Translations under genes and position numbers: made by a program
From: Actinomyces faecalis
GTDB taxonomy: Bacteria; Actinomycetota; Actinomycetes; Actinomycetales; Actinomycetaceae
DNA length: 64,000 bases
Direction of reading: 5' to 3'
Assembly: GCF_013184985.2 (NCBI RefSeq)
Contig: NZ_CP063418.1
Location: 868,001 to 932,000, forward strand
The notes under the pieces: model-generated
What the model was told of the DNA's origin: nothing
Databases searched by the model: none
What the model saw: the letters and a program-made list of their open reading frames with translations, nothing else
In this document: in pieces, positions 12,550 to 31,217 of the stretch
How the letters are laid out: every line of letters starts with the position of its first letter
How positions within the stretch are numbered: position 1 is the first letter of the stretch

Positions 12550-12724
12550 ACTGCTGCGAACGTGCCGCAACGAGTCGGTACTTTATCGGCTTGTCGGTGG
12601 CGCCACCAAACTGTCGGCCGTGCACTGTGTCACGTTCACGGTGGTACCGCTGGCGGGTCCATGCGGTTCGCGGCGCCAGGCCTTGTTCAGCCTGCCTCCA
12701 GGCGAGGTCGCTGACCAGGAGAGG

Positions 12725-13503: not shown

Positions 13504-13579
13504 GCCTCCGTAGCTCAATGGATAGAGCATCGGCCTTCTAATCCGCAGGTTCCCGGTTCGAGTCCGGGCGGGGGCACCA
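13504..13579 (+). tRNA. tRNA-Arg (TCT)
   Basis: A complete cloverleaf: acceptor GCCTCCG with CGGGGGC (one T-G pair), anticodon loop TTCTAAT reading TCT, T-arm GTTCGAGTC, and encoded CCA. Its 3' half is the attachment core of prophage 2 (attL), so the phage restores an intact gene on integration. Confidence 0.95.
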
Positions 13580-13840
13580 CTCATCGCCCGGCGCGGGCGT
13601 CATCAGCGCCCACGGCGTCGTACCGAGCGTCTCCGCGACAATGTCCAGGTCCTCGAGCTGCCACTGACGCTCCCCGCGCCACCTGAGCGCTACTGCATTG
13701 CGGGCCATACCGATTGCGCGCGAGAGGTCGGAGGCGTTCCAGCCCACCCGTGCCGCTGCCATGCGGACGTTCGCGGCGACGATCTCAGCTGCTGTTGTCG
13801 CGGGAGCAGTCTTGGGCTTCGGAAGTGTCATCGTGCTCAT
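13538..13840 (-). CDS. Prophage 2 repressor, prophage (truncated) form
   Basis: 100 aa. An HTH of lambda-repressor type lies at about residues 20-75: VRMAAARVGWNASDLSRAIGMARNAVALRWRGERQWQLEDLDIVAETLG. The last ~15 codons are read antisense through the tRNA-Arg 3' half, and the TAG stop (13,538-13,540) uses a host base. In circular phage DNA the frame would run past the core into phage sequence and add YTAWGLAA before TAA (see 31,151-31,175). ATG 13840 or 13831 could start translation; neither has a ribosome site. Divergent from the Cro-like gene. Confidence 0.85.
   Translation of the reverse strand: MSTMTLPKPKTAPATTAAEIVAANVRMAAARVGWNASDLSRAIGMARNAVALRWRGERQWQLEDLDIVAETLGTTPWALMTPAPGDEWCPRPDSNREPAD
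13539..13580 (+). other. attL of prophage 2 (42-bp core)
   Basis: Starts taatccgcaggttcccgg and ends gggggcaccac within and just past tRNA-Arg. It is identical to 31,176-31,217. The base before the core is C here (host) and G at attR (phage). Confidence 0.95.
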
Positions 13841-13846
13841 GCGTCA

Positions 13847-13950
13847 ATGATGACACGAAACGGGTCATGTCGCATTGGATATCTATGGGGCGACACGCCG
13901 AGAGGAACTACGCGCTTGTGATTTGTCCTCGAAATGAGTCATCATCACTC
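13847..13950. promoter_or_regulatory. Divergent operator region of prophage 2
   Basis: The 112-bp gap between repressor and Cro-like gene holds an inverted pair: ATGATGACAC (13,847-13,856) next to the repressor start and GAGTCATCAT (13,936-13,945) next to the Cro start, matching in 9 of 10 positions as reverse complements. The second lies in GAGT-catcatc-ACTC. These are candidate repressor/Cro sites. Confidence 0.5.
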
Positions 13951-13952
13951 GC

Positions 13953-14177
13953 ATGAGTCAGCGACTATCGGCGCCTCAGGCCGCGACGACGCGGGCCGCG
14001 CGCAACCTCATGCAAGAACGTCAGTGGTCACAGGCGGACCTAGCCCACGCCCTCGACATGATGACTTCGACCCTCCGAGGCCGTCTGTACGGCCATCGTC
14101 GTTGGACGTTGGACGACCTCGACCGCCTGGCCCTGCTGGGTGCTGAGGTGCCTGCCTTCGGGGAGGTGGGGGCGTGA
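13953..14177 (+). CDS. Cro-like HTH protein
   Basis: 74 aa, ATG 13953. The HTH is clear: ARNLMQERQWSQADLAHALDMMTSTLRGRLYGHRRWTLDDLDRLALL. It is the first gene of the rightward lytic operon, divergent from the repressor. Its stop overlaps the next GTG. By position it is the Cro equivalent that shuts off repressor synthesis or modulates early transcription. Confidence 0.8.
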   Translation: MSQRLSAPQAATTRAARNLMQERQWSQADLAHALDMMTSTLRGRLYGHRRWTLDDLDRLALLGAEVPAFGEVGA

Positions 14178-14473
14178 GCGGGGGGCCTGTGTATAACCCT
14201 CGTGTGGTGCAGGACTGCCTGGCCCTGGAACCGGCGGGTGTGAGTGCTGGTGTGGACACCCTGGGGAGGCTGTGCCTGTACCTGGAGGGCCTGACCCAGC
14301 CGGTGGCCGTGGTGCTGTGCCCTCTGGAGGACGCCCACCACATCGAGTACATGATCCGTGCCACTGCCGCCGTGTACACCGTGCCGGACGACGCCTCCGA
14401 GATCGCCACCACCACGCCCGCCGCGCCTGGGATGCCGACGCCTCGTGACGTGTTCGGGGGTGAGCGGGCGTGA
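14174..14473 (+). CDS. Small early phage protein, unknown
   Basis: 99 aa from GTG 14174, GTGA-coupled to the Cro-like gene. The protein starts MSGGPVYNPRVVQDCLALEP and includes LYLEGLTQPVAVVLCPLEDAHH, a beta-rich small domain without recognised family. It is co-translated with neighbours; no function can be assigned. Confidence 0.6.
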   Translation: MSGGPVYNPRVVQDCLALEPAGVSAGVDTLGRLCLYLEGLTQPVAVVLCPLEDAHHIEYMIRATAAVYTVPDDASEIATTTPAAPGMPTPRDVFGGERA

Positions 14474-14667
14474 TTGCTCAGTGGTCCGACGTGACGGCCT
14501 CCCTGTGGATCGTGGCCGCATTCGGCTTCGGTGCGTGGGTGGGGCGCGTGTTTCGTCGTGGTGTGCGTCTGACCCTGGCCGGGTGGGCCTACGGGGCCGC
14601 GTGCCGCCTGGAGCGTGTCTCTGACCGGCTCATCGGCTCGGTCGTGCGCGCAGGGAGGGACCAGTGA
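14470..14667 (+). CDS. Small early membrane protein
   Basis: 65 aa from GTG 14470, overlapping the previous stop. One hydrophobic N-terminal segment (SLWIVAAFGFGAWVGRVF) is followed by a basic, partly amphipathic tail. Possibly a membrane-associated exclusion or accessory protein; unsupported beyond topology. Confidence 0.55.
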   Translation: MIAQWSDVTASLWIVAAFGFGAWVGRVFRRGVRLTLAGWAYGAACRLERVSDRLIGSVVRAGRDQ

Positions 14668-14861
14668 TGGTGACCTTCCTGCTGACTCTCCTTGGTGTCC
14701 TCATGGTCATGGCCGGGTGGGGCGTGGCCTGCCTGGCCGTCCTGGGCCTGGCCCATGTCTATGGTGCGGGCCTGCGTCCCTCGGTGGCCGGGTGGGTGGC
14801 TGTCGTCGTGCTCCTGCTGGTGGCTGTGGGTCTGTGTGCGGGCGGGGTGAGGCTGCTGTGA
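14667..14861 (+). CDS. Small two-helix membrane protein
   Basis: 64 aa from ATG 14667 (TGATG overlap with the previous stop, AGGGAGGGA upstream). Two strongly hydrophobic segments (FLLTLLGVLMVMAGWGVACLAVLGLA and VAGWVAVVVLLLVAVGLCAGGV). With the preceding gene it makes a pair of small membrane proteins in the early operon. Function unknown. Confidence 0.55.
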   Translation: MVTFLLTLLGVLMVMAGWGVACLAVLGLAHVYGAGLRPSVAGWVAVVVLLLVAVGLCAGGVRLL

Positions 14862-15157
14862 GTACCGACCCGCTGCTTGGCCCTATGGGCACGCCCCTGG
14901 ACGCCGTGGCCCGCCAGGGCCTGGCCGACGGCGACGCTGCCTCCTGCATCGAGCAGGTGCGCTGGGCCCGCCATGCCGCCGTGCTCACTCCTACCGGTGG
15001 GCTGGTGCGTGCCGTGGATACCGGCCACCGCCCCGGGGACATCATGGGCCGCCTCAGGGCTGACGGCGGGATACCTGATCCGGTGGCCGTGTGCGGGACG
15101 TGTGGCCAGGGGTGGCCGTGCCGGTCGCGTCGGCTGGAGGCGGGGGCGGGGCTGTGA
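14858..15157 (+). CDS. Small early protein with cysteine motif
   Basis: 99 aa, GTG 14858, coupled at both ends by GTGA. It starts MSTDPLLGPMGTPLDAVARQ and ends with a possible metal site, VAVCGTCGQGWPCRSRR. The rest looks like a small soluble helical protein. No family recognised. Confidence 0.6.
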   Translation: MSTDPLLGPMGTPLDAVARQGLADGDAASCIEQVRWARHAAVLTPTGGLVRAVDTGHRPGDIMGRLRADGGIPDPVAVCGTCGQGWPCRSRRLEAGAGL

Positions 15158-16032
15158 GTGCGCCGCTGACTCGCCCGGCCCGTGCCCCGCGCCGTCGTCT
15201 GCGCACGGCCACGGCCCGCATGAAGACCAGCACGCTGGTGGACATGCTGGAGATGCGGGGGTGGGGCGCGCTCAACGACGTGGGCCGTAAGGGCACCCGC
15301 GCCACCCTGCGCGCCCTGGTGCTGTCCCTGCCCTTCGGGTCGGGGGAGGGGTATGCCACCGTCCCACAGATCGCCTACAAGGCAGGTTACAGCTCGCGTC
15401 ACTGGGTGGGGGAGATGCTGGCCGACCTGGAGGGCCTGGGCCTGGTCACCTGGCGGCGTGGCGGGGTGTATCACGGCGAGCCCGTGCCCTCCTACTTCCG
15501 TATCAATAAGCAGCTCCTCGCTGACCTCGTGAACTCCGCGCGCGAGCAGTGCGCGGAGGAGCTGGCGGCCATGCGCGTCAAGATGCGCGCCCACCTGGCC
15601 AAGTGGCGCCACCTGCGCTACATCGCGCCAAAAACGCGCAAGCCCCGCCCCGACATTTCGCAGGCGCCGCAAGGGCAAACCGCCTCCTCGCAGAGTACAG
15701 TCACCGGTCACCCAACCCCCCAGGGTGGGGAGGCCCCGGTAAGCGGGGGGCCTCACACGCTTACAACGCCTTCTGATAAGCGGAGCGCTTCGCGCGCTCA
15801 CTGCCCGGACGAGCCCGCCCGTGGGCGGGACGGCACCCCGGCTCACCCGATCAGCCTCATGCGCAAGGTCGCAGCCATGGCCGGGCCACGCAGACGCGTC
15901 ACCCCTGCCGCCAGGGCCGCCCTGCCCTGGCAGGACCCGCGCCCCATGCCCGACCCCTCACCCGCCGTCCTGGCCGCCAGAGCAGCAGCGGCTGACGCCG
16001 CCGCTGCTGGAGCAAGGAGGAAGATGTCATGA
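15154..16032 (+). CDS. Winged-helix protein, possible replication initiator
   Basis: 292 aa, GTG 15154. Residues about 30-115 look like a MarR/helix-turn-helix domain: GTRATLRALVLSLPFGSGEGYATVPQIAYKAGYSSRHWVGEMLADLEGLGLVTWRRGG. A coiled stretch (NSAREQCAEELAAMRVKMRAHLAKW) and a low-complexity Pro/Ala-rich tail follow. The layout, a winged helix that reads like a plasmid/phage replication initiator followed by a flexible tail, and its position before HNH and terminase suggest a replication protein. No polymerase or helicase is encoded by this phage. Confidence 0.6.
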   Translation: MSAPLTRPARAPRRRLRTATARMKTSTLVDMLEMRGWGALNDVGRKGTRATLRALVLSLPFGSGEGYATVPQIAYKAGYSSRHWVGEMLADLEGLGLVTWRRGGVYHGEPVPSYFRINKQLLADLVNSAREQCAEELAAMRVKMRAHLAKWRHLRYIAPKTRKPRPDISQAPQGQTASSQSTVTGHPTPQGGEAPVSGGPHTLTTPSDKRSASRAHCPDEPARGRDGTPAHPISLMRKVAAMAGPRRRVTPAARAALPWQDPRPMPDPSPAVLAARAAAADAAAAGARRKMS

Positions 16033-16394
16033 CGGCCACGCGCCCATACGTGCCGGTGCCGTGCATCCACGGACACGAGGACTACCGCCTGTGCCTGGCC
16101 TGCCAACGCAAACTCACCCACGACCGAGCGGACACAGCCAAACGCTCGCGCCGACGCGTGAGCCTGCCAGACACGTCCGCTAGCCCCGAGCCTCTGCCCG
16201 CACCTCCACCTGAGCCGGTCCCGGCGTCAGCTGAGGCGATAGCAGCAGCCCGCCAGGCAGCGGCCCAGGCCCAGGCACACAGCACCACCACCCACCAGGC
16301 CCGCCGCTACGCACGCGACGCCGAGGCGGCCCAGGCCCGCCGCGCCGTCATCGCCCAGGCCATGGCATCCCTGTACAAGACAAGGAGCGTGTAG
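16029..16394 (+). CDS. Phage protein with N-terminal zinc-ribbon-like motif
   Basis: 121 aa, ATG 16029 overlapping the upstream stop. The N-terminus PCIHGHEDYRLCLACQRK could bind a metal (Cys/His). An Ala/Gln/Arg-rich helix occupies the rest. No family recognised; translationally coupled. Confidence 0.55.
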   Translation: MTATRPYVPVPCIHGHEDYRLCLACQRKLTHDRADTAKRSRRRVSLPDTSASPEPLPAPPPEPVPASAEAIAAARQAAAQAQAHSTTTHQARRYARDAEAAQARRAVIAQAMASLYKTRSV

Positions 16395-16396
16395 TG

Positions 16397-16600
16397 ATGG
16401 AGCACGAGCCGCGCGAGTTCTGGACGGCTAGGGAGATGGCGGCGCAGCTGAGTATCAGTGAGAAGGAGCTGGCTGCCCTGCGCACACGCGGGGACGGCCC
16501 GCCCTTCATCTACCTGGGCCGCCGTGTGCGCTACCCCGTGGCAGCCGTGCGCCGCTGGACCATGGCCCGCTCACGCTGCCAGACAGGAGCGGGCAGGTGA
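16397..16600 (+). CDS. Excisionase-like HTH protein
   Basis: 67 aa from ATG 16397 (GTG 16394 is an alternative; AAGGAG lies upstream). It has the classic MerR/AlpA/Xis-type fold: FWTAREMAAQLSISEKELAALRTRGDGPPFIYLGRRVRYPVAAVRRW. It is a good candidate for the recombination directionality factor that partners the integrase at 30,204, or for a regulator. Confidence 0.75.
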   Translation: MEHEPREFWTAREMAAQLSISEKELAALRTRGDGPPFIYLGRRVRYPVAAVRRWTMARSRCQTGAGR

Positions 16601-16914
16601 CCGACCACCACGCTGAGTGGAAGGCGATACCGTACGCACAGCGCCGGGACCTGATCGCCCAGGTGCGTGAGCGGGACGGGAGCCTGTGCCACCTGTGCGG
16701 CCTGTACGTGGGTGAGGACGAGGAGAGCGCGGACCACATCGTGCCCGTCTCCCAGGGCGGGCGCTCGAGCGTGGACAACCTGGCTCTTGCTCACCGTCAC
16801 TGCAACTACGCACGCGGCAACCGGCCGGCCACCACCACGCCGTCGGTGCCTGTGCCAGAGCATGACGGCCTGGCCGACTTCATCCGAGCGGACGAGGCGG
16901 CGGGCCGCGCGTGA
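16597..16914 (+). CDS. HNH endonuclease
   Basis: 105 aa, GTG 16597 coupled by GTGA. The HNH core is complete: CHLCG, then DHIVPVSQGGRSSVDNLALAHRHCNYARGN. HNH proteins beside terminase genes stimulate packaging cleavage at cos sites in many siphophages (as for HK97 gp74), so this is likely part of the packaging machine. A cos site may lie nearby. Confidence 0.88.
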   Translation: MTDHHAEWKAIPYAQRRDLIAQVRERDGSLCHLCGLYVGEDEESADHIVPVSQGGRSSVDNLALAHRHCNYARGNRPATTTPSVPVPEHDGLADFIRADEAAGRA

Positions 16915-17014
16915 CCGCCACTAGTTTTTCTGAAGAAAAGCATCACGGAACACCCCGCGCCAGCGTGTTCTCTCCCCCAAAGTCGGGAAGAAAAAAGCGG
17001 AAGGAGGACAGGAA

Positions 17015-17371
17015 ATGACGATTGCGGCCCTGCCCGGAATGGAAATCGCGGAAAAGCCACGAATCACCGACGGACCTATGCTCACGGCCACAAAAACAGT
17101 CGTGGACCGGATACAAACCGATCCTGTCTTGTCCTCGCGATATGCTGCCCTGTGCGCCCTGGCCCTGGTCATGGGGGAGGACGTCGATAACATCGACTAC
17201 ACCGAGAAGGCCTACGCGCGTACCAAGCTCTACGACGCGGCCGCCAAGGTCTGTCAGGCCCTGGCCGAGGCTATGGCGGAATCTGGCGGCGGGGACATCC
17301 TCACCGCCACCCTGGAAGCCATTAGGGCCACTGACACTATCGCCGCCGACGCGGAAGGCGATGACCTGTGA
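17015..17371 (+). CDS. Probable terminase small subunit
   Basis: 118 aa, ATG 17015 behind GGAAGGAGG. Mostly helical (ATKTVVDRIQTDPVLSSRYAALCALAL, then YTEKAYARTKLYDAAAKVCQALAEA) and immediately upstream of the large subunit, overlapping by 4 bases. The call rests on position, size and helical character; the sequence itself is not diagnostic. Confidence 0.65.
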   Translation: MTIAALPGMEIAEKPRITDGPMLTATKTVVDRIQTDPVLSSRYAALCALALVMGEDVDNIDYTEKAYARTKLYDAAAKVCQALAEAMAESGGGDILTATLEAIRATDTIAADAEGDDL

Positions 17372-18837
17372 CAGGCCGGTTCCCGCGCTTTACTCACCTC
17401 CCCGCCCCACGCCACTGCCCCCGCCCGGACCCCGCCTACCCGTACAACGAGGGCCGCGAGATCGCGAGCGTGTGCCACCTGCTGGGCTCCTCCCTCCAGC
17501 CCTGGCAGCGTATGACCATCAACCGCGCCACGCAGTACCGCCCCGCCCGCGACATCAGGGGCCGTCGTGTACGCGAGTACAAGTACAAGAAAATCCTTGT
17601 TTCCGTGCCCAGACAGTCCGGTAAGACCTTCCTAACGGGGCCGCTTCAGATATGGCGGCTCCTGTGCCACCCCGGTGAGGGTCATCTCTACACCGCCCAG
17701 ACCGGTGCGGACGCCGGAGCCCGTATGCGCGAGCTGCTGGCCCTGGTGGCTGAGTCACCCTCCCGCGCCCTGTTCCGCCCCCGCTACTCCAACGGCTCCG
17801 AGGGCCTGGCCGTCATGGGGACCGGCGCCACCCTGACCCGCTTCAGCCCCACCCTCTCATCCGTCCACGGAGGCCACCCACCGCTAGTGACCCTAGATGA
17901 GATATGGAAGTACACGTCCGACCTCGGAAACGGACTCCTAGGCGCTATCGGCCCCTCACAGGTCACTGTCCGCCAGAAAGCACAAATATGGATGGTATCA
18001 ACCAAAGGTACGGCGAAAAGCGAGTTCATGAATGAACTCATTCGTCAAGGAATATCTGGCGAGGACGACTCACTGCTTTATGTGGAGTTCTCCATGCCTG
18101 ACGGGGCTGACCCCTACGATCCGCATACATGGTGGGGTTTTCATCCTGCCCTAGGGAACACCATCAGTGAGGAATCATTGCGCGCCGATATGGGGCTGCC
18201 TCACGCTGAGTGGATGCGCGGGTATATGAACGTCGTCGTCTCAGCTGACAACCCCATCATCGCCCTGGAGGACTGGGACCACCTTGCAGAGGAGACTCCT
18301 ACCCTGCCCTCTCTCAATGACTGCGCGATCGCCTATGAGGTCGCTGGAGGTGGGGAGTGCGCCGCCGTCGTGTCCGCGTGGCGCGACCTCCTGACACTCA
18401 CCCCTCACGTCAAGGTCCTGGCCCAGCGCCCCGGCACGGCGTGGCTGACCCCCTACCTGGCCATGCTCGCCCGCCGCTGGCCCGGCGCCCACCTGTACGC
18501 CGACGACGGCGGACCCACCCGCCGTATCACCGACCACCTGACCGATATCCTGGACACCGACCGCCTGACCACGCTGACCATGACCGAGAGAGGCGTGGCG
18601 GACGGCAACCTCCTGGCTGCCGTCACCGAGACCGGTGCCCTACGACATGACGGCTCCACGGCCTTGCGCATGGCGGTAGCCAACGCTGCCATGCGCACCA
18701 CCAACGCCGTCGAGCGCCTGGACCGCGACAAGTCAACCGCCCCTATCGCCGCCCTGATCGCCGCCTCCGTCGCCCTGTGGGGAGCTGACCACACCGCCGA
18801 CGCGTGGGCCGTGCCCGCGTGGGCCGTTCAGGACTAG
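17368..18837 (+). CDS. Terminase large subunit
   Basis: 489 aa, GTG 17368. The ATPase domain has Walker A VPRQSGKT and Walker B PLVTLDEIW, followed by a coupling motif MVSTKGT. The C-terminal half carries the RNase H-like nuclease, with Asp candidates in LNDCAIAYEV, LYADDGGP and DRDKST. It translocates DNA into proheads and cuts the concatemer. Length is typical. An 81-bp gap separates it from the portal gene. Confidence 0.93.
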   Translation: MTGRFPRFTHLPAPRHCPRPDPAYPYNEGREIASVCHLLGSSLQPWQRMTINRATQYRPARDIRGRRVREYKYKKILVSVPRQSGKTFLTGPLQIWRLLCHPGEGHLYTAQTGADAGARMRELLALVAESPSRALFRPRYSNGSEGLAVMGTGATLTRFSPTLSSVHGGHPPLVTLDEIWKYTSDLGNGLLGAIGPSQVTVRQKAQIWMVSTKGTAKSEFMNELIRQGISGEDDSLLYVEFSMPDGADPYDPHTWWGFHPALGNTISEESLRADMGLPHAEWMRGYMNVVVSADNPIIALEDWDHLAEETPTLPSLNDCAIAYEVAGGGECAAVVSAWRDLLTLTPHVKVLAQRPGTAWLTPYLAMLARRWPGAHLYADDGGPTRRITDHLTDILDTDRLTTLTMTERGVADGNLLAAVTETGALRHDGSTALRMAVANAAMRTTNAVERLDRDKSTAPIAALIAASVALWGADHTADAWAVPAWAVQD

Positions 18838-18918
18838 ACGGGTACTGCCCGGGTACCAGACAGGACAACCCACCCCCAAACCTAGCCACCCCACCACAGC
18901 CGGGCGCAGTCTCCCGCT

Positions 18919-20058
18919 ATGGCATCACTCCAGGCACTGGCACGGCTGCTCACCCGCAGCGCCGACACGGGCAGCGACCTCACCCGCGCAGTGATCGCCC
19001 TGTCCCAGCGCCACGAGGGCATCCAGCCACCCACCCGCCCCATGGGGGACCCACGCTCCCTCGTCGCCGTCTACCGAGCCGTCCAGGTCCTGACCACCGC
19101 CGCCGCGCAACTGCCCATCACCGTCCGCCGGGCCGGCGCCACCATCACCCCGCCGGCACACGTCGCCCAGCCAGACCCCCGCATGACACCGGGGGAGTGG
19201 AAGACCCACATGGTCGCCTCCCTCGCCCTCCACGGCAACGCCTACGCCCTCATCGAGCGCGACACGGACGGCACCATCCTCGCCCTGCGACCCCTGGACC
19301 CCGCCCGCGTATTCGTCAGCGTCAACCCCACCACCCACGCCCTGCGCTTCGGGGCCGAAGGCCGCACCCTGACCTCCTACGACGTCCTGCACGCCCACCT
19401 CCAGCCCGCCCGCCCCTCCGAGCCCCTAGGCCTGGGCCCCATCCAGGCCGCCCGCTCCGAGCTCGAAGGCGCCCACCACACGCGCGACTACGCCACACAG
19501 TGGTTCACCGGCACCGGCCTGCCCTCCGGCATCCTCACCGGCCCCGCCGGCGCCACCTTCGAGGACGCCCTCAAGGCCCGCAACCTGTGGAACGGCCTCA
19601 CCCCGGACGGAGCCAAGGCCCTACCCGGCGACAACCCCAGCCGCGTGCGCGTGACCTCCAAGGGCTACGACTTCAAGCCCGTGGCAATCACCCCAGAAGA
19701 TGCCCAGTGGCTGGAAGCACGACAGTTCGACACCCTCCAGGTCGCCCGCCTGTTCGGCATCCCCTCCACCCTCATGCTCGCCGCCCCAGACGGCGGCTCC
19801 ATGACCTACTCCAATATCGAGCAGGACTGGATCGCCTTCACCCGCTTCACCCTCATGGCCTACCTACGCCCCCTAGAGGAAGCCCTCACCAGCCACACCG
19901 TGCGCGGCCAGTCCGTCCGCTTCAACCTGGACGGCCTCCTGCGATCAGACACCAAGAGCCGCTACGACTCCTACGCCATCGGCCTCGCAAACCGCTTCCT
20001 CACCATCGACGAGGTACGCGCCCTCGAAGACCGCCCACCACTCCAGGAGCAGCCATGA
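18919..20058 (+). CDS. Portal protein (HK97 gp3-like)
   Basis: 379 aa, ATG 18919. It has typical portal features: SLVAVYRAVQVLTTAAAQLPITVRR, then MVASLALHGNAYALIERDTDG, YDVLHAHLQPARPSEPLGLGPIQAAR, and the C-terminal GGSMTYSNIEQDWIAFTRFTLMAYLRPLEEAL. It forms the dodecameric DNA gate of the capsid. Its stop overlaps the next gene as ATGA. A longer frame that starts at 18,804 is out of register with this gene and is not coding here. Confidence 0.93.
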   Translation: MASLQALARLLTRSADTGSDLTRAVIALSQRHEGIQPPTRPMGDPRSLVAVYRAVQVLTTAAAQLPITVRRAGATITPPAHVAQPDPRMTPGEWKTHMVASLALHGNAYALIERDTDGTILALRPLDPARVFVSVNPTTHALRFGAEGRTLTSYDVLHAHLQPARPSEPLGLGPIQAARSELEGAHHTRDYATQWFTGTGLPSGILTGPAGATFEDALKARNLWNGLTPDGAKALPGDNPSRVRVTSKGYDFKPVAITPEDAQWLEARQFDTLQVARLFGIPSTLMLAAPDGGSMTYSNIEQDWIAFTRFTLMAYLRPLEEALTSHTVRGQSVRFNLDGLLRSDTKSRYDSYAIGLANRFLTIDEVRALEDRPPLQEQP

Positions 20059-21677: not shown

Positions 21678-21678
21678 C

Positions 21679-22035: not shown

Positions 22036-22044
22036 GAGACAGGC

Positions 22045-22419: not shown

Positions 22420-22431
22420 GAGGACGCACTC

Positions 22432-22875: not shown

Positions 22876-23306
22876 GCGTGGCCGCCCCTGACCGGGCTGC
22901 CGGGACCGTCCAGGTCCAGGGCCTGCGCCAGCTACGGCGCACCATGCGCCAGGCCGGTGACGACCTGGCCGACCTCAAGCGGATCAACCGCGAGGTCGCC
23001 GATATCGTCACCGGCGCCGCCGAGGGGCGCGTGCCCACGCTCACCGGGGCGCTCGCCGCGTCTGTGCGTGGGGCGGGCACCAAGACCGCCGCCATCGTCC
23101 GCGCAGGCCGCGCCCGCGTGCCCTACGCAGGCGTCATCCACTGGGGCCGCCACTACTGGCCCCGCAAGAACCACTCCCGCGCCGTCCCCAGCCAGGTCGA
23201 GCCCCGCCCGTTCCTGTCCCAGGCCGCCACCTCCACCGAGTCCACATGGGTGGGCCGGTTCGAGGACGAGATACAGAAGATCCTAGAAACCATCGAAGGA
23301 CAATAA
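22872..23306 (+). CDS. HK97 gp10-type tail/neck protein
   Basis: 144 aa, GTG 22872 (GTGA overlap). It contains LRQLRRTMRQAGDDLADLKRINREVADIV, VPTLTGALAASVRG, and the characteristic VPYAGVIHWGRHYWPRKN plus PRPFLSQAA of gp10-like/minor tail-completion proteins. It lies here after the tail tube gene rather than before it, an uncommon but known order. Confidence 0.75.
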   Translation: MSVAAPDRAAGTVQVQGLRQLRRTMRQAGDDLADLKRINREVADIVTGAAEGRVPTLTGALAASVRGAGTKTAAIVRAGRARVPYAGVIHWGRHYWPRKNHSRAVPSQVEPRPFLSQAATSTESTWVGRFEDEIQKILETIEGQ

Positions 23307-23608
23307 TGAAGAGGACCTACCTAGACATCGAGCTCGCCGACGGGAGCGTGCACGAGGCCGTGCGCGTCGTCGCCGCCGACAAGGTGCGGGCCGCCCAGAT
23401 CGCCCGCCGTAATGACGTCCCGCTCACCGACGGCCCGGAGGTCGCCGAGCTGCTCGCGTACGCGGCCACCACCCGCACCGGGATCGTGGCGGCTGAGGAC
23501 CTGGAGGCATGGCGCGCCCAGGTCACCGACTACGCCGCGTCAGAGACCGACCCAGACGACACGGCGGACCCTACATCGGCGCCCCTGGCAGCGCCCTCTA
23601 TGCCCTGA
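23306..23608 (+). CDS. Tail assembly chaperone (first frame)
   Basis: 100 aa, ATG 23306 overlapping the previous stop. The small protein (KRTYLDIELADGSVHEAVRVVAADKVRAAQIARRNDVPL, then LEAWRAQVTDY) lies just before the tape measure gene, the standard position of the G-type chaperone. A second frame (23,509-23,718) overlaps its end, as in G/GT systems. Confidence 0.7.
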   Translation: MKRTYLDIELADGSVHEAVRVVAADKVRAAQIARRNDVPLTDGPEVAELLAYAATTRTGIVAAEDLEAWRAQVTDYAASETDPDDTADPTSAPLAAPSMP

Positions 23609-23718
23609 CCGTGCTGGCCATGCGCACCGGCATCCCGCCGGCCGCGTGGCTGGCGGACGACCCCGCGTACCTCGAGACCGCCCTAGCAGTCCTGGAGAAG
23701 GAGGCCACCCGTGGCTAA
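23509..23718 (+). CDS. Second frame of tail assembly chaperone (-1 frame)
   Basis: An open -1 frame relative to the preceding gene, reaching past its stop to the tape measure start. The credible part is GPYIGAPGSALYALTVLAMR followed by IPPAAWLADDPAYLETALAVLEKE, which looks like the T segment of tail chaperones. It may be made as a -1 frameshift fusion, or by restart at GTG 23611. I do not see a canonical slippery heptamer in the overlap (the best regions are near 23,566-23,585), so the mechanism is open. The coordinates give the open frame, not a proven start. Confidence 0.5.
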   Translation: MARPGHRLRRVRDRPRRHGGPYIGAPGSALYALTVLAMRTGIPPAAWLADDPAYLETALAVLEKEATRG

Positions 23719-25795
23719 AACCGCCATCCTGTCTATCCGCATCCTCTCCGACGCGCGTGACGCCATCAAGGGCCTGGGCGAGGCGGAGGACAAGGCGGGC
23801 GGCTTCGGCAAGATGCTGGGAGGCATCAGCCCCGGCGCCCTGGCCGTGGGCGGCGCCGTCGTGACCGGTGTCGCCGCCGCCGGCAAGGCCCTGTACGACC
23901 TCGGGAGCGTCTTCGACGACGTGGAGGACACCATCAGGGTAGGCACCGGCGCCACCGGCGAGGCCCTGCAGGGCCTGGTGGACGACGCCCACGCCGTGGC
24001 CACGAGCGTGCCCACGTCCTTCGAGGCCGCCGGGGCGACCGTCGCCGACCTCAACACCCGCCTCGGCCTGTCCGGCGACACGCTCCAGACGGTCGCCTCC
24101 CAGTACCTGGAGGCGGGCCGCATCCTGGGCGAGGACGTGGACATCAGCGCCACCACCGCCGCCTTCGGAGCGTTCCACATCGAAGGCGAAGGCGTGTCCA
24201 CGGCCATGGACGACCTGTTCCGGGTCTCCCAGGCCACCGGCGTCGGCATGAACGACCTGGCCACCTCGGTCCAGACCAACGCCCTGGCCCTGCAGGAGAT
24301 GGGGTTCTCCTTCGAGGACTCTATCGCCCTGGTCGGGTCCCTGGACAAGGCCGGTGTGGACGCCGACGCCACGCTTACCGCCATGCGCAAGGGCATGATC
24401 AACCTCGCCCAGCCCGGCGAGGACCTGACCGACGCGTTCAGCCGGGTCACCGGGCAGCTGCAGGGCTACATCGACGCGGGCGACACCGCCGCCGCCCTGG
24501 ACCTGGCCGGAACCGTTTTCGGCACCCGTGGCGCCGCCCAGATGGTCCAGGCCCTCCAGACCGGCACCCTGTCCATGGGGGACCTGACCGCCGCCGCAGG
24601 CGTGACCGGTGACACCATCCTCGGAGTCGGCCAGGACACTCAGGACGCCGCTGAGAAGTGGCAGATACTGAAGAACAAGGGCATGGAGGCCTTGGAGCCC
24701 TTGGCCTCAGCGGTGTTCGGCCTCGCCGGTGACGCCCTGGGTGGCCTGGTTGACTGGATCGACTCGGTGGACTGGAGCCCGCTCACTGAGGGCGTGGCTG
24801 CTGTCGGTGACGTGGCCGCCTCCTTCGGGCAGTGGATCGCCAGCCTCGACCTTGGTGCACTGACTGGGTTCTTCTCAGGGTTCGGTGACGCCGCCGGCAC
24901 CGTCGGCACCAAGCTCGCCGGCATCGGGGAGAGGATCGGGCCCCTGATCCAGACCATCCAGGCAGGCCTAGGCCCCGTCCTGGAGGCCCTGGCCCCCGTC
25001 CTCGCCAGCGTGTTCGAGACAGGCCGCGCCCTGGTTCAGAACTTTATCGACACCGCCATCACCGTGTTCGGCGGGTTCGTGGACTACCTGGGCGGCTTCT
25101 TCACCCTCGTCCGGGGCCTGTTCACCGGTGACTGGTCCGCCGTGTGGGAGGGCGCCAAGCAGATGGTGAGTGGCGGGATCGGTGTCATCCGCTCTGTCCT
25201 GTCCGGCCTGGGAGGCATCCTGTCCGGCCTGTTCTCCTCAGCGTGGGCCGCTGCCAGGAGCGCGGTCAGCAGCGGCGTGTCTACCGTCATCGGCGTGATC
25301 CGGGGCCTGCCCGGCCAGGCAGCCAGCGCCCTCGGCAACATCGGCTCCACCCTCGTGAACGCCGGTGCCCGTCTCATCAACGGGTTTATCGAGGGGATCA
25401 CGTCCAAGATCAGCGCCGTGCGTGACACACTGACCGGCCTGACGGACAAGCTCACCTCCTGGAAGGGCCCGGAGCAGCGAGACGCCACCCTCCTCGAGGG
25501 CGCCGGACAGCTCGTGATCGGCGGACTCATCCGGGGCCTGGAGTCCCAGTACCCGGCGGTACGCGCCTCCCTGCGAGGGCTGACCGCCGACATCGCACAC
25601 ACCCCTATGGGTTCACTGACCGCCCCCGTGGTCTCCCTGGACTCGGCCCGGGCTGGCCGGGGAACCGGTGTGTACGCCCCCACATACCATGTCCATATCG
25701 GCCCCGGTGCGGACGGTGAGCGCGAGGCAAGACGGTTCTTGGACACGATCCGCCGCCACGAGCGGCGCCACGGACGTATCGAGGTGGCGGCGTGA
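23711..25795 (+). CDS. Tail tape measure protein
   Basis: 694 aa, GTG 23711. The N-terminus is typical (MAKTAILSIRILSDARDAIKGLG), with alternating helical and hydrophobic segments, for example ALAVGGAVVTGVAAAGKALYDL and FIDTAITVFGGFVDYLGGFFTLVRGL. The core domain at about residues 60-250 resembles the phage minor tail/TP901 tape measure region (ATVADLNTRLGLSGDTLQTVASQYLEAGRIL). It sets tail length; 694 residues would imply a tail of roughly 100 nm at about 1.5 angstrom per residue. Confidence 0.92.
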   Translation: MAKTAILSIRILSDARDAIKGLGEAEDKAGGFGKMLGGISPGALAVGGAVVTGVAAAGKALYDLGSVFDDVEDTIRVGTGATGEALQGLVDDAHAVATSVPTSFEAAGATVADLNTRLGLSGDTLQTVASQYLEAGRILGEDVDISATTAAFGAFHIEGEGVSTAMDDLFRVSQATGVGMNDLATSVQTNALALQEMGFSFEDSIALVGSLDKAGVDADATLTAMRKGMINLAQPGEDLTDAFSRVTGQLQGYIDAGDTAAALDLAGTVFGTRGAAQMVQALQTGTLSMGDLTAAAGVTGDTILGVGQDTQDAAEKWQILKNKGMEALEPLASAVFGLAGDALGGLVDWIDSVDWSPLTEGVAAVGDVAASFGQWIASLDLGALTGFFSGFGDAAGTVGTKLAGIGERIGPLIQTIQAGLGPVLEALAPVLASVFETGRALVQNFIDTAITVFGGFVDYLGGFFTLVRGLFTGDWSAVWEGAKQMVSGGIGVIRSVLSGLGGILSGLFSSAWAAARSAVSSGVSTVIGVIRGLPGQAASALGNIGSTLVNAGARLINGFIEGITSKISAVRDTLTGLTDKLTSWKGPEQRDATLLEGAGQLVIGGLIRGLESQYPAVRASLRGLTADIAHTPMGSLTAPVVSLDSARAGRGTGVYAPTYHVHIGPGADGEREARRFLDTIRRHERRHGRIEVAA

Positions 25796-27603
25796 GCGCG
25801 CCCCTGGCCTCGTGCGCCCTGTGGGTGGCCGGGCAGCGTATGGCTGACACTGCCGCCCGCCTGGGCGTGGTGCCGACCGCCCTGGCCGGGCTGCGCGTGA
25901 CGTGGGGGCGCACTGATGCCCTATCTCAGCCCCGTGCGGCTACCGCTGAGGCCCGCCTGGTCCTGCCCGCCACCCCGGGGCGCGTGACGGACATGCTCAC
26001 CATCGGGCGCACCCTGTCCGTGACCGCCACCATCCCCACCTGGGGTGTGGGTGGCGCCTCCAGCCTGGACCTGGCACGCGCCCGGGCCGTGTCGGCCACC
26101 TGGGACGGTGCCCGGCTGACCCCCACCGGCCCAGGTGCGGCCACCCTCACCGTGCCGCCCGCCGCCCCGTCCGCCACGGTCGGTGCCTGGGACCACCTGC
26201 CCACCGCCGCCCCTGGCCAGACCTGGACCCTGACCGCCGCCGTCACCCTGCCCCCCGCCCCCGCCACAGCCACCCTCCACCCGGTCACCTACACCACCCC
26301 CACCGCCGCCCCCGTCCTGGGACCAGCCATCGCCACCACCACCGCCACCGGCACGCTCACCGGCACATGGCAGCCAGGTAGCCAGCACGCGGGGGCGTGG
26401 GTGGGCGTGGCCGTGCGCCTGTGGCCCACAGGCCCCACCTGGGCCGGGGTCCCCGGCCCCTGGACCTCCCAGGCGTACACCTGGGCCGGGACCGGGGACC
26501 TGACCCTCACCCGCGCCACCATCACCCCACCCAGGCAGGGCGCGCCCCTGACCGCGAGCGTGTTCGAGGGGGAGATCACCGACACCTGCCTCAGCTGGGA
26601 CCAGAGGCTAGACGCGCCCGTGCTGACGCTGACCGCCGCCGACCTCCTGGCACGCCTGGCCGCCCTGGAGGTGGGGGAGGAGCCCTGGCCAGAGCACACC
26701 GTGGCCCAGCGCGTGGCCGCCATCATGGACGCCGCCGACCTGGACACGCCCGTGCTCATCGACGCCCTGCCAGCCTCCCGCCACCTGGCCCCCGTAGACG
26801 TGGACTCCAAGGACGTCGCGACCCTGCTGGGCGAGGCCGCCACCAGCGCCGGGGCCGTGCTGTGGGCCTCCACCCACCGCACCACCGGCCCCTACCTGCG
26901 CATCGAGGACACATCAGCCCGCACCGCCCTGTCCCGCCTGACCGTCCCGGCCACCGGCCCCGCCACCGTCACCCCTACCACACGCGACGGCTACACCCTC
27001 TCAGCCCACCACCTGGGCGCACAGGTGGGCGTGAGGCGGACCGTGGCCGACGCCATCACCTCCGTGCGCCTGACCTGGGTCCAGCCCGGCGTGGGCGAGG
27101 ACGGCAAGGAGCCCACGCTCACGCAGCGCACCATCGTGATCACCGACACCGACGCCCAGCGCCTGACCGGCGCCCGTGAGGCGTCCGTGTCCACCTCCCT
27201 GTCACGCCAGGACGAGGCACAGGCCGTCGCCGCCCGGCTGGCGCGGCTGACGTCCGCCGGCGGGTGGGTCCTGGACTCCCTGACCTGGGACACCGACGCC
27301 CCCGCCGCCCCCGCGTCCCTGGCCACGCTCGCCGCCCTCCTGGACGCCACCCGCCGCATGGGCGCACCCGTGCGCGTCACCGACCTGCCCGCGTGGATAC
27401 CCGGCGCCCCCACCCTGACCGCCTACGTCGACGGCGGCACCCTCACCTGGACACAGGAGCGGCCCCGGTGGGTGGCGGAGATGACCCTGACCACCGCCAC
27501 CACCGACGGCGCCGGGATGACCTGGACAGACACCCCCACCTCCCTGACCTGGGACCGCACCGGACACATCACCTGGGCGCACACCGCATCCATCACCCCC
27601 TAG
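25792..27603 (+). CDS. Minor tail / tail tip protein
   Basis: 603 aa, GTG 25792 coupled by GTGA. Rich in Thr, Ala and Pro and mostly beta-structured. It contains VTWGRTDALSQPRAATAEARLVL near the start, carbohydrate-module-like stretches in the middle (TWTLTAAVTLPPAPATATLHPVTY), and a hub-like region (YTLSAHHLGAQVGVRRTVADAI) later. By position and size it combines distal tail and tip functions. The very biased composition limits finer assignment. Confidence 0.75.
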   Translation: MSAPLASCALWVAGQRMADTAARLGVVPTALAGLRVTWGRTDALSQPRAATAEARLVLPATPGRVTDMLTIGRTLSVTATIPTWGVGGASSLDLARARAVSATWDGARLTPTGPGAATLTVPPAAPSATVGAWDHLPTAAPGQTWTLTAAVTLPPAPATATLHPVTYTTPTAAPVLGPAIATTTATGTLTGTWQPGSQHAGAWVGVAVRLWPTGPTWAGVPGPWTSQAYTWAGTGDLTLTRATITPPRQGAPLTASVFEGEITDTCLSWDQRLDAPVLTLTAADLLARLAALEVGEEPWPEHTVAQRVAAIMDAADLDTPVLIDALPASRHLAPVDVDSKDVATLLGEAATSAGAVLWASTHRTTGPYLRIEDTSARTALSRLTVPATGPATVTPTTRDGYTLSAHHLGAQVGVRRTVADAITSVRLTWVQPGVGEDGKEPTLTQRTIVITDTDAQRLTGAREASVSTSLSRQDEAQAVAARLARLTSAGGWVLDSLTWDTDAPAAPASLATLAALLDATRRMGAPVRVTDLPAWIPGAPTLTAYVDGGTLTWTQERPRWVAEMTLTTATTDGAGMTWTDTPTSLTWDRTGHITWAHTASITP

Positions 27604-27618
27604 GAGGAGGTCACACCC

Positions 27619-28068
27619 ATGCCAGCCACCACCACCCGCATGAAAATCCCCTACCCACTACCCGGCGACCGCCTCGCCGACTACCCCACCACCGCACAGC
27701 AGGCCGCCGCCCGCCTCGAAGCCGCCCTGACCCCCGCCCGCACCACCCTGACCCTGGAGACCGGCTGGCAGGCCGACACCTCCAGCGGCCCCCTGTCATC
27801 TATCGGGGTCCTGCACACGACCCCCATCTGCGTGAAGTGGCCACGCTCGGACTTCAGAGTGACCACGAGCGACAGCTTCCCGATCTACCGCATCCCCACC
27901 GGCATACCCACCCCACCGGACTGGACCTGCCTGGGCTTTATCCACAACGGCGCCTACGTCATGCCCCTGGTCTACCGCTCCGCCGACCGCTCCATCCGAG
28001 TCCAGCCCACCAGCTCCTTCACCTGGGGCACCGGCTGGTGCTACGGCACCGCCACCTGGATCGCCTAA
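27619..28068 (+). CDS. Probable minor tail / receptor-binding protein
   Basis: 149 aa, ATG 27619 with AGGAGGAGG upstream. The start (MPATTTRMKIPYPLPGDRLADYPTTAQQAAARLEAAL) is typical of actinophage minor tail proteins that follow the tip. The C-terminal ~100 residues are beta-rich and aromatic (VKWPRSDFRVTTSDSFPIY, then FTWGTGWCYGTATWIA), compatible with a receptor-binding head. Confidence 0.65.
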   Translation: MPATTTRMKIPYPLPGDRLADYPTTAQQAAARLEAALTPARTTLTLETGWQADTSSGPLSSIGVLHTTPICVKWPRSDFRVTTSDSFPIYRIPTGIPTPPDWTCLGFIHNGAYVMPLVYRSADRSIRVQPTSSFTWGTGWCYGTATWIA

Positions 28069-28090
28069 CCCACCCACGAAAGGAAACAGC

Positions 28091-28918
28091 ATGACCGCTA
28101 TCGCCCCCAACACCGCCGTCACCGAGGTCGTCCCCAGCCCCAACCTCACCCAGGGGCGCACCGGCCCTCTCACCGGGATCGTGATCCACCACTGGGGCAC
28201 CGACGGCCAGACCCACGACCAGGTGCTGCGCACCCTGCGCACCGCCAACACCACGGGCAGGGTATCGGCCCACTACTGCGTCTCCGCCGGACGCGTCACC
28301 CAGCTCGTCTCCGACCGGGACACCGCATGGCACTGCCGGGGCAGCAACGCGACCACCATCGGTATCGAGTGCAGGCCGGAGATGAGCGACGCCGACTTCG
28401 AGACCGTGGCGGGCCTGGTCGCCGCGATCCGCTCCGAGCACGGGCCCCTGCCCCTGTCCGGCCACCTGGACCACATGGCCACCGCCTGCCCGGGCCGCTG
28501 GTACGCCCGCCTGGCCGACCTGGACGCCCGCGCCCGCCAGATCGCAGGCACCCCCGCCGCCCCGGGCCTGGTGCAGTCCGCCTGCCTGGCCCTGGACGGG
28601 ATCATCGGGTGGGCCACCATCCGCGCCCTCCAGGCCCTGCTCGGCACGCCCGTGGACGGGGAGATATGGGGCCAGTGGGCACCCAACCACGCCTACGTGC
28701 CGGCTGCTGGCGGAGGCTGGGTCTGGGACCGCTCCGGCGCCGGGTCCCCGGTCGTCCGCGCCCTCCAGGCACGGCTGGGCGTGACCGTGGACGGCCTCCT
28801 CGGCCCCGAGACCATCCGGGCGTGGCAGGCCCGCCTGGGCGTGGCCGTGGACGGCGTCCTCGGCGCCGAGACCGCCCGCGCGATCCAGACCGCCCTCAAC
28901 CGTGGAGGACTGTGGTGA
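28091..28918 (+). CDS. Endolysin: N-acetylmuramoyl-L-alanine amidase with two PG-binding domains
   Basis: 275 aa, ATG 28091 after AAAGGAAA. Residues about 20-150 form an Amidase_2/PGRP domain with zinc ligands in IVIHHWGTDG, the AHYCVSAG core, and DHMATACPGRWY. Two short peptidoglycan-binding repeats follow (VRALQARLGVTVDGLLGPETIRAWQ and ARLGVAVDGVLGAETARAIQ). It cleaves the stem peptide from glycan at lysis and is followed by holin-type genes. Confidence 0.93.
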   Translation: MTAIAPNTAVTEVVPSPNLTQGRTGPLTGIVIHHWGTDGQTHDQVLRTLRTANTTGRVSAHYCVSAGRVTQLVSDRDTAWHCRGSNATTIGIECRPEMSDADFETVAGLVAAIRSEHGPLPLSGHLDHMATACPGRWYARLADLDARARQIAGTPAAPGLVQSACLALDGIIGWATIRALQALLGTPVDGEIWGQWAPNHAYVPAAGGGWVWDRSGAGSPVVRALQARLGVTVDGLLGPETIRAWQARLGVAVDGVLGAETARAIQTALNRGGLW

Positions 28919-29139
28919 CCATGGGGCGACACGAAGCCAAGCCACTGATCAGCCCCGCCGTCCGACGCCGTGCCTACCCCGTCGCCCTGGCCCTGATCGC
29001 CCTGGCGGTGGCCTACGGGCTCATCGAGGGCGAGCAGGTCGCCGCCTGGACCAACCTCGCCGCCGCCCTCACAGGCGCGGGAGTAGCCGCCCTGGGCACC
29101 GCCTACCGGCCAGACGACGACCAGGAGACCGGTCAGTGA
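28915..29139 (+). CDS. Holin-like membrane protein
   Basis: 74 aa from GTG 28915 with GGAGG seven bases ahead; overlaps the endolysin stop. Two hydrophobic segments (AYPVALALIALAVAYGLI and ANLAAALTGAGVAALGTAY) and a charged C-terminus ending DDDQETGQ. Position directly after the endolysin makes it the prime holin candidate. Confidence 0.75.
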   Translation: MTMGRHEAKPLISPAVRRRAYPVALALIALAVAYGLIEGEQVAAWTNLAAALTGAGVAALGTAYRPDDDQETGQ

Positions 29140-29498
29140 TCGGCGACATCATCACCGCCCTGTCCTCCCTGGGAGGCCTGGGCGGGCTGGCCGCCGCCGT
29201 CACAGCCGTATGCGCGCTACGCAGACGCGACGACGACATGACCGCCGTGCGCGCCGCCGTCGAGCCCAACCACGGCTCATCCATGGCGGACGCGGTGCGG
29301 CGTATCGAGCACGGCCAGGACGCCACCCGCGACGGCATGGCCGACCTGTCCCGCCGTCTGGGCCACGAGGTCGGAGAGCTGCGCCGCGAGGTCGCAGACG
29401 TGCGCCGGGCCCTGTCCGACCTCACACACTCAGCCGACGCCACCCACACCGACCACGCCGCCCGCATCCGCCACCTCGAGCACACCCACCACACCTAG
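29136..29498 (+). CDS. Second lysis-cassette membrane protein with coiled coil
   Basis: 120 aa, GTG 29136 (GTGA overlap). One N-terminal hydrophobic segment (IITALSSLGGLGGLAAAVTAVCAL) is followed by a charged coiled coil (DGMADLSRRLGHEVGELRREVADVRRALSDL). It resembles the single-pass coiled-coil membrane proteins often found beside actinophage holins. Confidence 0.65.
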   Translation: MIGDIITALSSLGGLGGLAAAVTAVCALRRRDDDMTAVRAAVEPNHGSSMADAVRRIEHGQDATRDGMADLSRRLGHEVGELRREVADVRRALSDLTHSADATHTDHAARIRHLEHTHHT

Positions 29499-29506
29499 GA
29501 CACCCC

Positions 29507-30181
29507 ATGACACACACCACCATGACCACGACCGCTACCTCTACCGCTGCTCAGGGGACGTGTCGGCTGACCGGGCGCGTCGTGGACGCCACCGGCCACC
29601 CCACCCCCGGCACCGTGGTCACCCTGACCCCCGTCCCACCCCTACCAGCCAGCCCCGGCCAGGTCCCCGCCCTCATCACCCCCGCACGCCTGGACCTAGA
29701 CACCGACGGGCGCATCACCTCACTAGACCCCGCCACCGGCCTAGCCCGACCGTGGGCAGACGTCATCACCGGCCCCTGGACCACCCGCGTGCGCCTGACC
29801 GGGCCAGGCACCACCTGGGCCGTAGACACCCACCTACCCGCCGGTGGCAGCGTGGACATCACCACCCTGGTACCAGCCACCGGCACCATCCCAGACGCCA
29901 CCGACCCCGACACCCCGCCAGACGGGTGGCCCGCACACATGCGCGCAGACCTAGACGCCCTCACCACCCGCCTGGACACCCTCACCACAGGGCTCAGCAC
30001 CGAGCTCGAGGCCGTGGTCGGGCAGATCTCCGAGTTCGGCAGCCTCATCACCACCCGCCTCGGCCCCGAGCACATCACCACCCTCCTGACCCGCCTCGAC
30101 ACCCTCGAGAGCACACAGGGCCAGCTCACCGAGGGCCTCGAGGCCCTCGCACAAGAACTACAAAAACTAGGCGCGGCGTGA
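29507..30181 (+). CDS. Possible tail-associated protein with carboxypeptidase-like fold
   Basis: 224 aa, ATG 29507. The N-terminal part (CRLTGRVVDATGHPTPGTVVTLTPVPP) looks like a carboxypeptidase-regulatory or Ig-like beta domain. The C-terminal ~85 residues are a heptad coiled coil (ADLDALTTRLDTLTTGLSTELEAV, then LLTRLDTLESTQGQLTEGLEAL), suited to trimerisation. It is the last rightward gene and lies after the lysis genes, an unusual place for a fibre. It ends QKLGAA. Confidence 0.55.
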   Translation: MTHTTMTTTATSTAAQGTCRLTGRVVDATGHPTPGTVVTLTPVPPLPASPGQVPALITPARLDLDTDGRITSLDPATGLARPWADVITGPWTTRVRLTGPGTTWAVDTHLPAGGSVDITTLVPATGTIPDATDPDTPPDGWPAHMRADLDALTTRLDTLTTGLSTELEAVVGQISEFGSLITTRLGPEHITTLLTRLDTLESTQGQLTEGLEALAQELQKLGAA

Positions 30182-30223
30182 TGGCTGTCGCTGCCCGGCC
30201 AGGTCAAGCAGCGACAGCCATCA
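30179..30223. terminator. Bidirectional hairpin between convergent late gene and integrase
   Basis: A perfect 15-bp stem (TGATGGCTGTCGCTG with its complement) and a 15-nt loop. It spans the stop of the rightward gene and encodes, on the other strand, the last residues of the integrase (VMAVAA). There is no strong T-tract. Confidence 0.65.
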
Positions 30224-31019
30224 CGGCCCGGCGTAACCGGTCGGGCTCAACGACGACGTAGGCGAGCGTGGTCGTGGGTGAGGCGTGTCCGAGGATCGCC
30301 TGCACTGCGAGCACGTCCCCGGTCAGTCCGTAGGCCCGCGAGGCGAACCTGTGGCGCAGGCTGTGCATACTCCAGTCGCCCTCGAGGGCCTCGCTCACGC
30401 GGTCACCGATAGCCCCGGGCGTCATGTGCCCGTCGCCGAACCGGGCGGGGAAGGCCCATCCTCCATTCGCGCGGCACCGGGCGTCGATTTCGCCGGCGAG
30501 ATCGTCACTGAGCGGGATGGTCCTCTCCTTGCCACCCTTACCATGGACGATGAGGGAGCGGCCCATCAGGTCATCGATGAGGTCATGCGCGTGGACTCGT
30601 GCGACCTCTCCACGCCGTAGCCCGGCCTCGCTGGCTAGGCGGATCATGAGGGCTGTCTCCTCGTCCGCCTGTGCCAGGGCCTGCCTGATCACGTCCTCAG
30701 GGCACGGGTGCGGGCGTGGTCCTGCCTGTCGGATCGCGGGTAGCGCAGCGGCGGGGGAGTCATCGACATACCCAGCCCTCTCAGCCCACCCGTAGAACTT
30801 CGACACACTGGCATAGGCGGCTCGGCGCGTGTTGCGCGCCCACTCGTGTGTGCCGCCCCATGCGGTGAGGTGGTCCTCCTCGACCTCCCACGGGCCTACG
30901 CCTACCCATCGGCCCATCCGTCTGACCCATCCGGTGCGCAGTCGGATCGTGCTGGCCGGGTACCCGCTCGCAGTGAGGGCGGTACGCCACTGCTCGATCG
31001 CCTCTTCCCATGCTGTCAT
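30204..31019 (-). CDS. Tyrosine integrase of prophage 2
   Basis: 271 aa, ATG 31019. The catalytic set is complete: GLRRGE (Arg), VHGKGGKER (Lys), HSLRHR, LGHAS, and nucleophile Tyr in LAYVVVEP. It lacks an arm-binding domain, like other short integrases. It ends AVMAVAA, resembling an ssrA-type degron. In circular phage DNA it lies 131 bp downstream of the long form of the repressor gene, in the same direction, so repressor and integrase would be one transcription unit. Confidence 0.95.
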   Translation of the reverse strand: MTAWEEAIEQWRTALTASGYPASTIRLRTGWVRRMGRWVGVGPWEVEEDHLTAWGGTHEWARNTRRAAYASVSKFYGWAERAGYVDDSPAAALPAIRQAGPRPHPCPEDVIRQALAQADEETALMIRLASEAGLRRGEVARVHAHDLIDDLMGRSLIVHGKGGKERTIPLSDDLAGEIDARCRANGGWAFPARFGDGHMTPGAIGDRVSEALEGDWSMHSLRHRFASRAYGLTGDVLAVQAILGHASPTTTLAYVVVEPDRLRRAVMAVAA

Positions 31020-31150
31020 CACGCCTGCCCCAACCGTCACACCGGGCACAGAGATTTCCCCTACGCACCTGCAGCCAGGTCGCTAGAAGGGCGCGTCCTG
31101 CTCGCCCTTATCGCGCGCCTCGTATTCCGGCGTCCCGGCTGCGTACCCGC

Positions 31151-31175
31151 TTATGCCGCCAGCCCCCACGCCGTG
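31151..31175 (-). other. Detached 3' end of the viral-form repressor gene
   Basis: Read leftward from the attR core, in the frame of the repressor at 13,538-13,840, this phage DNA encodes YTAWGLAA and then TAA (31,151-31,153). In the prophage it is about 17.6 kb from its gene and not translated as part of it; excision would rejoin them. Confidence 0.85.
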
Positions 31176-31217
31176 TAATCCGCAGGTTCCCGGTTCGAGT
31201 CCGGGCGGGGGCACCAC
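31176..31217 (+). other. attR of prophage 2 (42-bp core)
   Basis: Identical to 13,539-13,580; a tRNA-Arg 3' fragment without the 5' half, so not a functional tRNA. Host DNA resumes at 31,218; nothing is seen between there and 31,347. Confidence 0.95.

Follow-up and report, generated by a model that had tools for sequence, protein, structure and literature searches.

Predicted integration-dependent immunity in an Actinomyces faecalis prophage whose viral repressor would carry an ssrA-like tag

What becomes of immunity when a phage integrates through its own repressor gene? The question is raised by a stretch of 64,000 nucleotides from Actinomyces faecalis (contig NZ_CP063418.1, positions 868,001 to 932,000), analysed here as a whole and called the window, in which a prophage sits in a host transfer RNA gene, tRNA-Arg(TCT), and its immunity repressor gene reads into the attachment core. 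According to an original prediction, a host base completes the stop codon of this repressor, the phage form would be longer and end in an ssrA-like degradation tag, and the case would be independent of the known ones and new outside mycobacteria. Judging from the sequence, we conclude that the element is very probably a temperate phage with integration-dependent immunity, in which the viral repressor would carry a tag until integration.

A host base ends the repressor of the prophage

The host tRNA-Arg(TCT) gene, which is the bacterial attachment target attB, is intact at the left prophage end, attL (13504..13579, + strand; ARAGORN). A core of 42 identical bp, as predicted, is found at attL (13539..13580) and at the right end, attR (31176..31217); its limits were set by lengthening the attL/attR match until the first mismatch, and at attL it begins with the last base of the anticodon and extends one base beyond the annotated tRNA end. 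The repressor gene, of the helix-turn-helix (HTH) type, encodes 100 residues (13538..13840, - strand) and ends in the core with a split TAG (13538..13540, - strand). The prediction was exact to the base: position 13538 belongs to the host and 13539-13540 to the core. On the tRNA strand this stop reads CTA and lies in the anticodon loop. We then reconstructed the phage attachment site, attP, from attL and attR. Joining the phage flank at attR (31151..31175, - strand) to the core by script replaced the stop with TAC, of which the flank gives the third base, followed by TAWGLAA and TAA. The join thus reproduced the claimed viral repressor of 108 residues, with YTAWGLAA as its extra residues and GLAA as its end, and the prophage form is shorter owing to the stop at attL.

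Both the repressor and the tyrosine integrase (30204..31049, - strand; Pfam PF00589, E value 1.4e-18) read leftward, so that attP would have the order repressor, attP, integrase, in agreement with the prediction; in the phage arrangement the integrase would lie just downstream of the repressor in the same direction. Its C-terminus, RAVMAVAA, is a second -AA end that had not been pointed out before. The host transfer-messenger RNA (tmRNA) gene said to lie in the window was recovered by ARAGORN (43438..43808, - strand). It encodes the tag ADNTRTDFALAA, which ends in ALAA and so resembles the viral repressor end as claimed, and the host genome carries clpX.

These features suggest the following switch. 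A host protease, most likely ClpXP, would remove the viral repressor and the integrase through their -AA ends, and immunity would stay unstable until the integrase lasts long enough to integrate the phage. Integration would then cut off the tag and yield a stable repressor. It would also part the integrase from the repressor promoter, and integrase expression would for this reason be lost in the prophage.

The junction, the two C-termini and the intact tRNA are seen directly, as are the silent changes and the recurrence described below. However, of the 601 six-frame stops of this prophage that follow five or more open codons, 9 (1.5%) are preceded by -AA, so that a single case is weak evidence and the evidential weight falls on a sister prophage and on a survey of the family. 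We also considered whether a pyrimidine after the core proves selection for read-through, and dropped this argument, since any non-host base escapes the stop two-thirds of the time.

A sister prophage keeps the tag peptide

Searching related Actinomyces prophages for the same junction had been proposed with the original prediction, and this search recovered it. A prophage in another genome of the genus (G037) occupies the same tRNA-Arg, between the same host genes, and its viral repressor form likewise ends in YTAWGLAA. The two repressors are 72% identical as proteins, and 69% identical as DNA outside the core. In the tag region, 4 of the 25 phage-derived bases differ and all four changes are silent, including one from a TAA to a TGA stop; the chance that four random changes are all silent is 0.3-1.4%, depending on the assumed transition share. 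Between repressor and integrase, G037 has a small open reading frame (ORF) of 51 codons (L034 3558-3713) whose GTG start overlaps the repressor stop. The counterpart in the window (31083-31151, - strand) is internally deleted and lacks that GTG start.

An unoccupied site was found in another species (G043), where a tRNA-Arg(TCT) is flanked by relatives of both host neighbour genes, with about 2.75 kb extra between the first flanking gene and the tRNA. In two species, repressor-like fragments lie just downstream of tRNA-Arg(ACG) and read toward the tRNA (L036 13861-14262; L037 about 12059-12298); they are probably remnants of lost prophages.

The arrangement recurs in the bacterial family

Integrases of the type found in mycobacteriophage BPs (E at most 1e-30) occur at 51 places in 45 of the 213 genomes of the bacterial family. 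We examined 36 of these places, the window and G037 included, taking all those of the genus and then places mostly on long contigs; the remaining 15, mostly on short contigs, lie outside the sample. A shared core overlapped a tRNA at 28 of the 36 places, with antisense orientation at 25; a repressor-like frame ran into the core at 24 of the latter. The targets were tRNA-Arg(TCT), Arg(ACG), Lys(CTT), Lys(TTT), Asn(GTT) and Met(CAT). More than one frame crossed the core in seven of the 24 systems (G000a, G012, G015, G018, G034, G159 and G154), and there the HTH-bearing frame was picked by eye; 22 of the 24 chosen repressors match PHROG 2328. No usable core was found at G041, G037 contig 8, G048, G058, the first place in G150, G144 and G168, and the cores at G026 (a 14-bp match), G044 and G106 were unusable, being on the sense strand. 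G014 was left uncounted although its viral frame ends in PAAA, because the analysed stretch ends before its tRNA. In G156, likewise uncounted, the second core copy is 2.5 kb off, the frame crosses a gap of N and no repressor was seen.

The viral repressor form would end in -AA in 7 of the 24 systems: GLAA in the window and G037, TLAA in G111, RGAA in G054, RIAA in G000a, TIAA in G034 and PVAA in G189. Once the sister G037 is set aside, 6 of 23 viral forms do so, where the stops in all six frames of these prophages would lead one to expect 0.26 (p 1.3e-7); the surveyed systems are related to each other, so that this and the following p-values overstate independence. When the systems were split by target, a division made after the data were seen, -AA ends were present in 6 of 12 non-tRNA-Met systems (p 8.5e-10), or 5 of 11 with the window also left out (p 3.7e-8), and in none of the 11 at tRNA-Met. 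Two further viral forms end in LVA (G130b and G078). The integrase has an -AA end in 9 of the 24 systems, the window and its sister among them.

Viral extensions in the tRNA-Met group are 18-96 residues long. Among its ten tails of at least 30 residues, six fall in the top 5% for hydrophobicity against their own null (G012, G015, G150b, G161, G159 and G154) and G000b, G018, G002 and G130a fall outside it; this result comes from one script, and G161, G159 and G154 are sisters among the six. It is possible that the tRNA-Met tails carry a different signal. The three sisters (loci L164-L169 and L175-L177) share a similar long tail, ending in GGAR or GGPR.

Two more prophages of this kind were found in the same genome as the window. 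One, at tRNA-Asn(GTT) (G000:C1 about 1583400-1619000; L070-L072), has a viral repressor that would end in PQRIAA and an integrase that ends in AAAA. The other, at tRNA-Met(CAT) (G000:C1 about 722400-765000; L073-L075), has a viral extension of 34 residues without -AA.

The stop of the prophage form arises next to the core

In 22 of the 24 systems the stop of the prophage form lies 0-2 codons past the core, the exceptions being G000a (8 codons) and G053 (6 codons). For comparison we read the antisense frames of 27 tRNA entries from the analysed stretches, one per isoacceptor (one untyped): 65 of 81 frames had no stop up to about base 37, after which 11 of the 65 (17%) stopped within two codons. 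This comparison is approximate, since each isoacceptor is represented by a single gene and the core end is held constant, and the 24 prophages use only about ten combinations of tRNA and frame.

The choice of tRNA target may be tied to the immunity switch, the antisense of the anticodon supplying an immediate stop, and two kinds of viral tail may have evolved, one ending in -AA (Arg, Asn and Lys) and one long and often hydrophobic (Met). We offer this joint proposal tentatively and consider it somewhat more doubtful than probable. The family-wide pattern itself, in which 22 of 24 prophage forms stop no more than two codons from the core and two kinds of tail occur, is possibly new. In the open-access literature on such systems, as far as its accessible text goes, we found nothing that connects tRNA identity with frame and stop.

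Known systems have the same architecture

Over its length, the integrase of the window prophage shares 44% identity with that of mycobacteriophage Grizzly, and its relatives occur in 632 records out of 50,697 for phages, among them 270 for Mycobacterium and 136 for Gordonia. With a BPs-like integrase, the case is thus not an independent one as had been supposed. BPs and its relatives have the same order of repressor, attP and integrase, an attP inside the repressor gene and a tRNA-Arg target (PMC4557955, PMC9262239), as well as a shorter prophage form, a stop made by a host base and proteolysis signals on both repressor and integrase; the signal on the BPs integrase is C-terminal (PMC4557955, PMC9262239). 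Integration removes 33 residues in BPs, compared to 8 in the window. Reading Grizzly (record MH779505, Gclasvirinae) in the same way placed the junction after residue 103 of 136, which equals the published sizes of the two BPs repressor forms (PMC4557955). Its viral repressor ends in DKAS, whereas that of the window ends in GLAA, and the BPs and Grizzly repressors show no clear kinship to the window repressor beyond the HTH type.

The completion of a stop codon by the host base beside the core was considered as a new feature and rejected as such. It has already been published for BPs, whose target is a tRNA-Arg (PMC9262239), and for four prophage clusters of Mycobacterium abscessus, MabK, MabC, MabN and MabO (PMC8092301), where the first bacterial base at attL forms the stop, MabK being at a tRNA. 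Several M. abscessus systems also have -AA on both repressor and integrase (PMC8092301). These four clusters differ from the window in their host and in losing 20 to 35 residues.

Systems outside mycobacteria are likewise on record, contrary to the original prediction. Integration-dependent immunity with ssrA-like tags has been described in Gordonia phages (PMC5559632) and in the Bifidobacterium prophages Bb423phi2 and 689b-1 (PMC6109161), which have other hosts than the window prophage; the Bifidobacterium case loses 18 residues. Our open-access literature search found no article joining the term integration-dependent immunity with Actinomyces. The term is reportedly used in the literature on Arthrobacter and Streptomyces phages too.

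The Gordonia phage GRU3 (KR053197) resembles the window prophage in its genome of 17.7 kb and in its integrase (41% identical). Its viral end, SLVTAA, has 9 residues after PAD, close to the 8 of the short tag in the window. GRU3 has another host, and its repressor match is confined to the tRNA-derived part. In mycobacteriophage Charlie (NC_023729; cluster N, Nclasvirinae in its record) the frame crosses the tRNA antisense as WCP..SN..PADY, as in the window, and the viral form ends in DSAA, 21 residues following PAD rather than 8. Without most of the tRNA-derived part, the Charlie and window repressors are 23% identical over 84 columns (pairwise E 4e-5), a weak match; common ancestry is left open because the first match leaned on tRNA-derived residues. 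SpongeBob, Phloss and Tapioca, which gave the same repressor match as Charlie, have integrases 28% identical to that of the window.

Comparison thus supports one part of the original prediction well, namely that immunity depends on integration and that the viral form of the repressor bears an ssrA-like tag. The mechanism is neither independent nor new in kind.

Gene content of the prophage

Genes for terminase, portal, head, tape measure and endolysin give the element, 17.6 kb long, the appearance of a small tailed phage. We identified the terminase large subunit (17368..18837; PHROG 9, E 2.5e-43), the portal protein (18919..20058; PHROG 12, E 2.3e-69), the tape measure protein (23711..25795; PHROG 305, E 5.2e-48) and an endolysin of the amidase type (28091..28918; PHROG 4018, E 7e-32), all on the + strand. 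The repressor matches PHROG 4583 (E 5.8e-14) and PHROG 2328 (E 2.3e-9) and no Pfam family at E 0.001. Across a control region in which operators are expected (13841..13952) lies a small divergent HTH gene, Cro-like by position (13953..14177, + strand; Pfam HTH_26, E 1.2e-4; PHROG 4583, E 1.2e-5), as in BPs-type systems. At the left of the window, another tyrosine integrase (10924-12570, - strand; PHROG 1, E 5.6e-65 for the part 10924-12270) lies beside tRNA-His (12474-12548) and probably belongs to a separate integrated element.

Discussion

The sequence features of BPs-type integration-dependent immunity that we tested were found in the window, save operators and promoters. An ssrA-like C-terminus, common but not universal in such systems, is present on both the viral repressor (GLAA) and the integrase (AVAA). 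Several results weigh against the proposed switch. Simple scans of the control region gave no sigma-70-like promoter and, as the longest inverted repeat, one with arms of only 6 bp. Among viral contigs, direct evidence of attP was sought with the tag pattern and no exact match was found; a protein search of these contigs gave no close relative of the repressor. Two distant integrase loci did turn up; upstream of one of them (L104) lies a frame that ends in VNVA. Two of the four silent changes in G037 also abolish the GTG start of the small ORF, so that the silent-change test is helpful but not decisive; the changes may reflect decay of that ORF. In the survey, 17 of 23 viral forms lack -AA, including all 11 at tRNA-Met, and 15 of 24 have neither -AA nor LVA, which speaks against a universal ssrA tag. 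Moreover, according to PMC8092301, even the type case BPs has no -AA end, so that the tag is not a defining mark.

The viral extension might act otherwise than through ClpXP, by blocking oligomerisation or DNA binding or by recruiting another protease. The great variety of viral tails would fit this, above all the long tRNA-Met tails without -AA, several of them hydrophobic. Yet both BPs forms bind DNA similarly (PMC4557955), and GLAA is like the ALAA in which the tmRNA tag of the host ends; we consider this explanation unlikely. Still less likely is coincidence, in which integration into a tRNA would trim eight inert residues, GLAA would be idle and both forms would repress equally. In favour of coincidence, -AA precedes 1.5% of the prophage stops and many related viral forms lack it, but the excess of -AA ends over expectation, the tag peptide kept in G037 through silent changes only and the -AA ends of the integrases argue against it. 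Finally, it is very improbable that the tagged gene is the Cro-like one and the divergent HTH gene the true repressor, with the tag tuning entry into the lytic cycle instead of immunity. PHROG 4583 and PHROG 2328 are each matched by the two genes, but the tagged gene matches repressor families better (5.8e-14 versus 1.2e-5), and in BPs the gene that holds attP next to the integrase is the repressor (PMC4557955).

Integration-dependent immunity, in which the viral repressor would be degraded until integration removes its tag, is hereby extended to another actinobacterial family. Its layout at 24 of the 36 examined integrase places suggests that it is common in this family and not a speciality of mycobacteriophages. 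A tag of eight residues lost through one host base offers a compact test bed for genetic switches coupled to degrons. A cloned viral form of such a repressor would probably give no immunity, whereas the prophage form would. Should more systems bear out the link of tRNA choice to repressor frame, it would help to account for the particular tRNA genes that these phages use.

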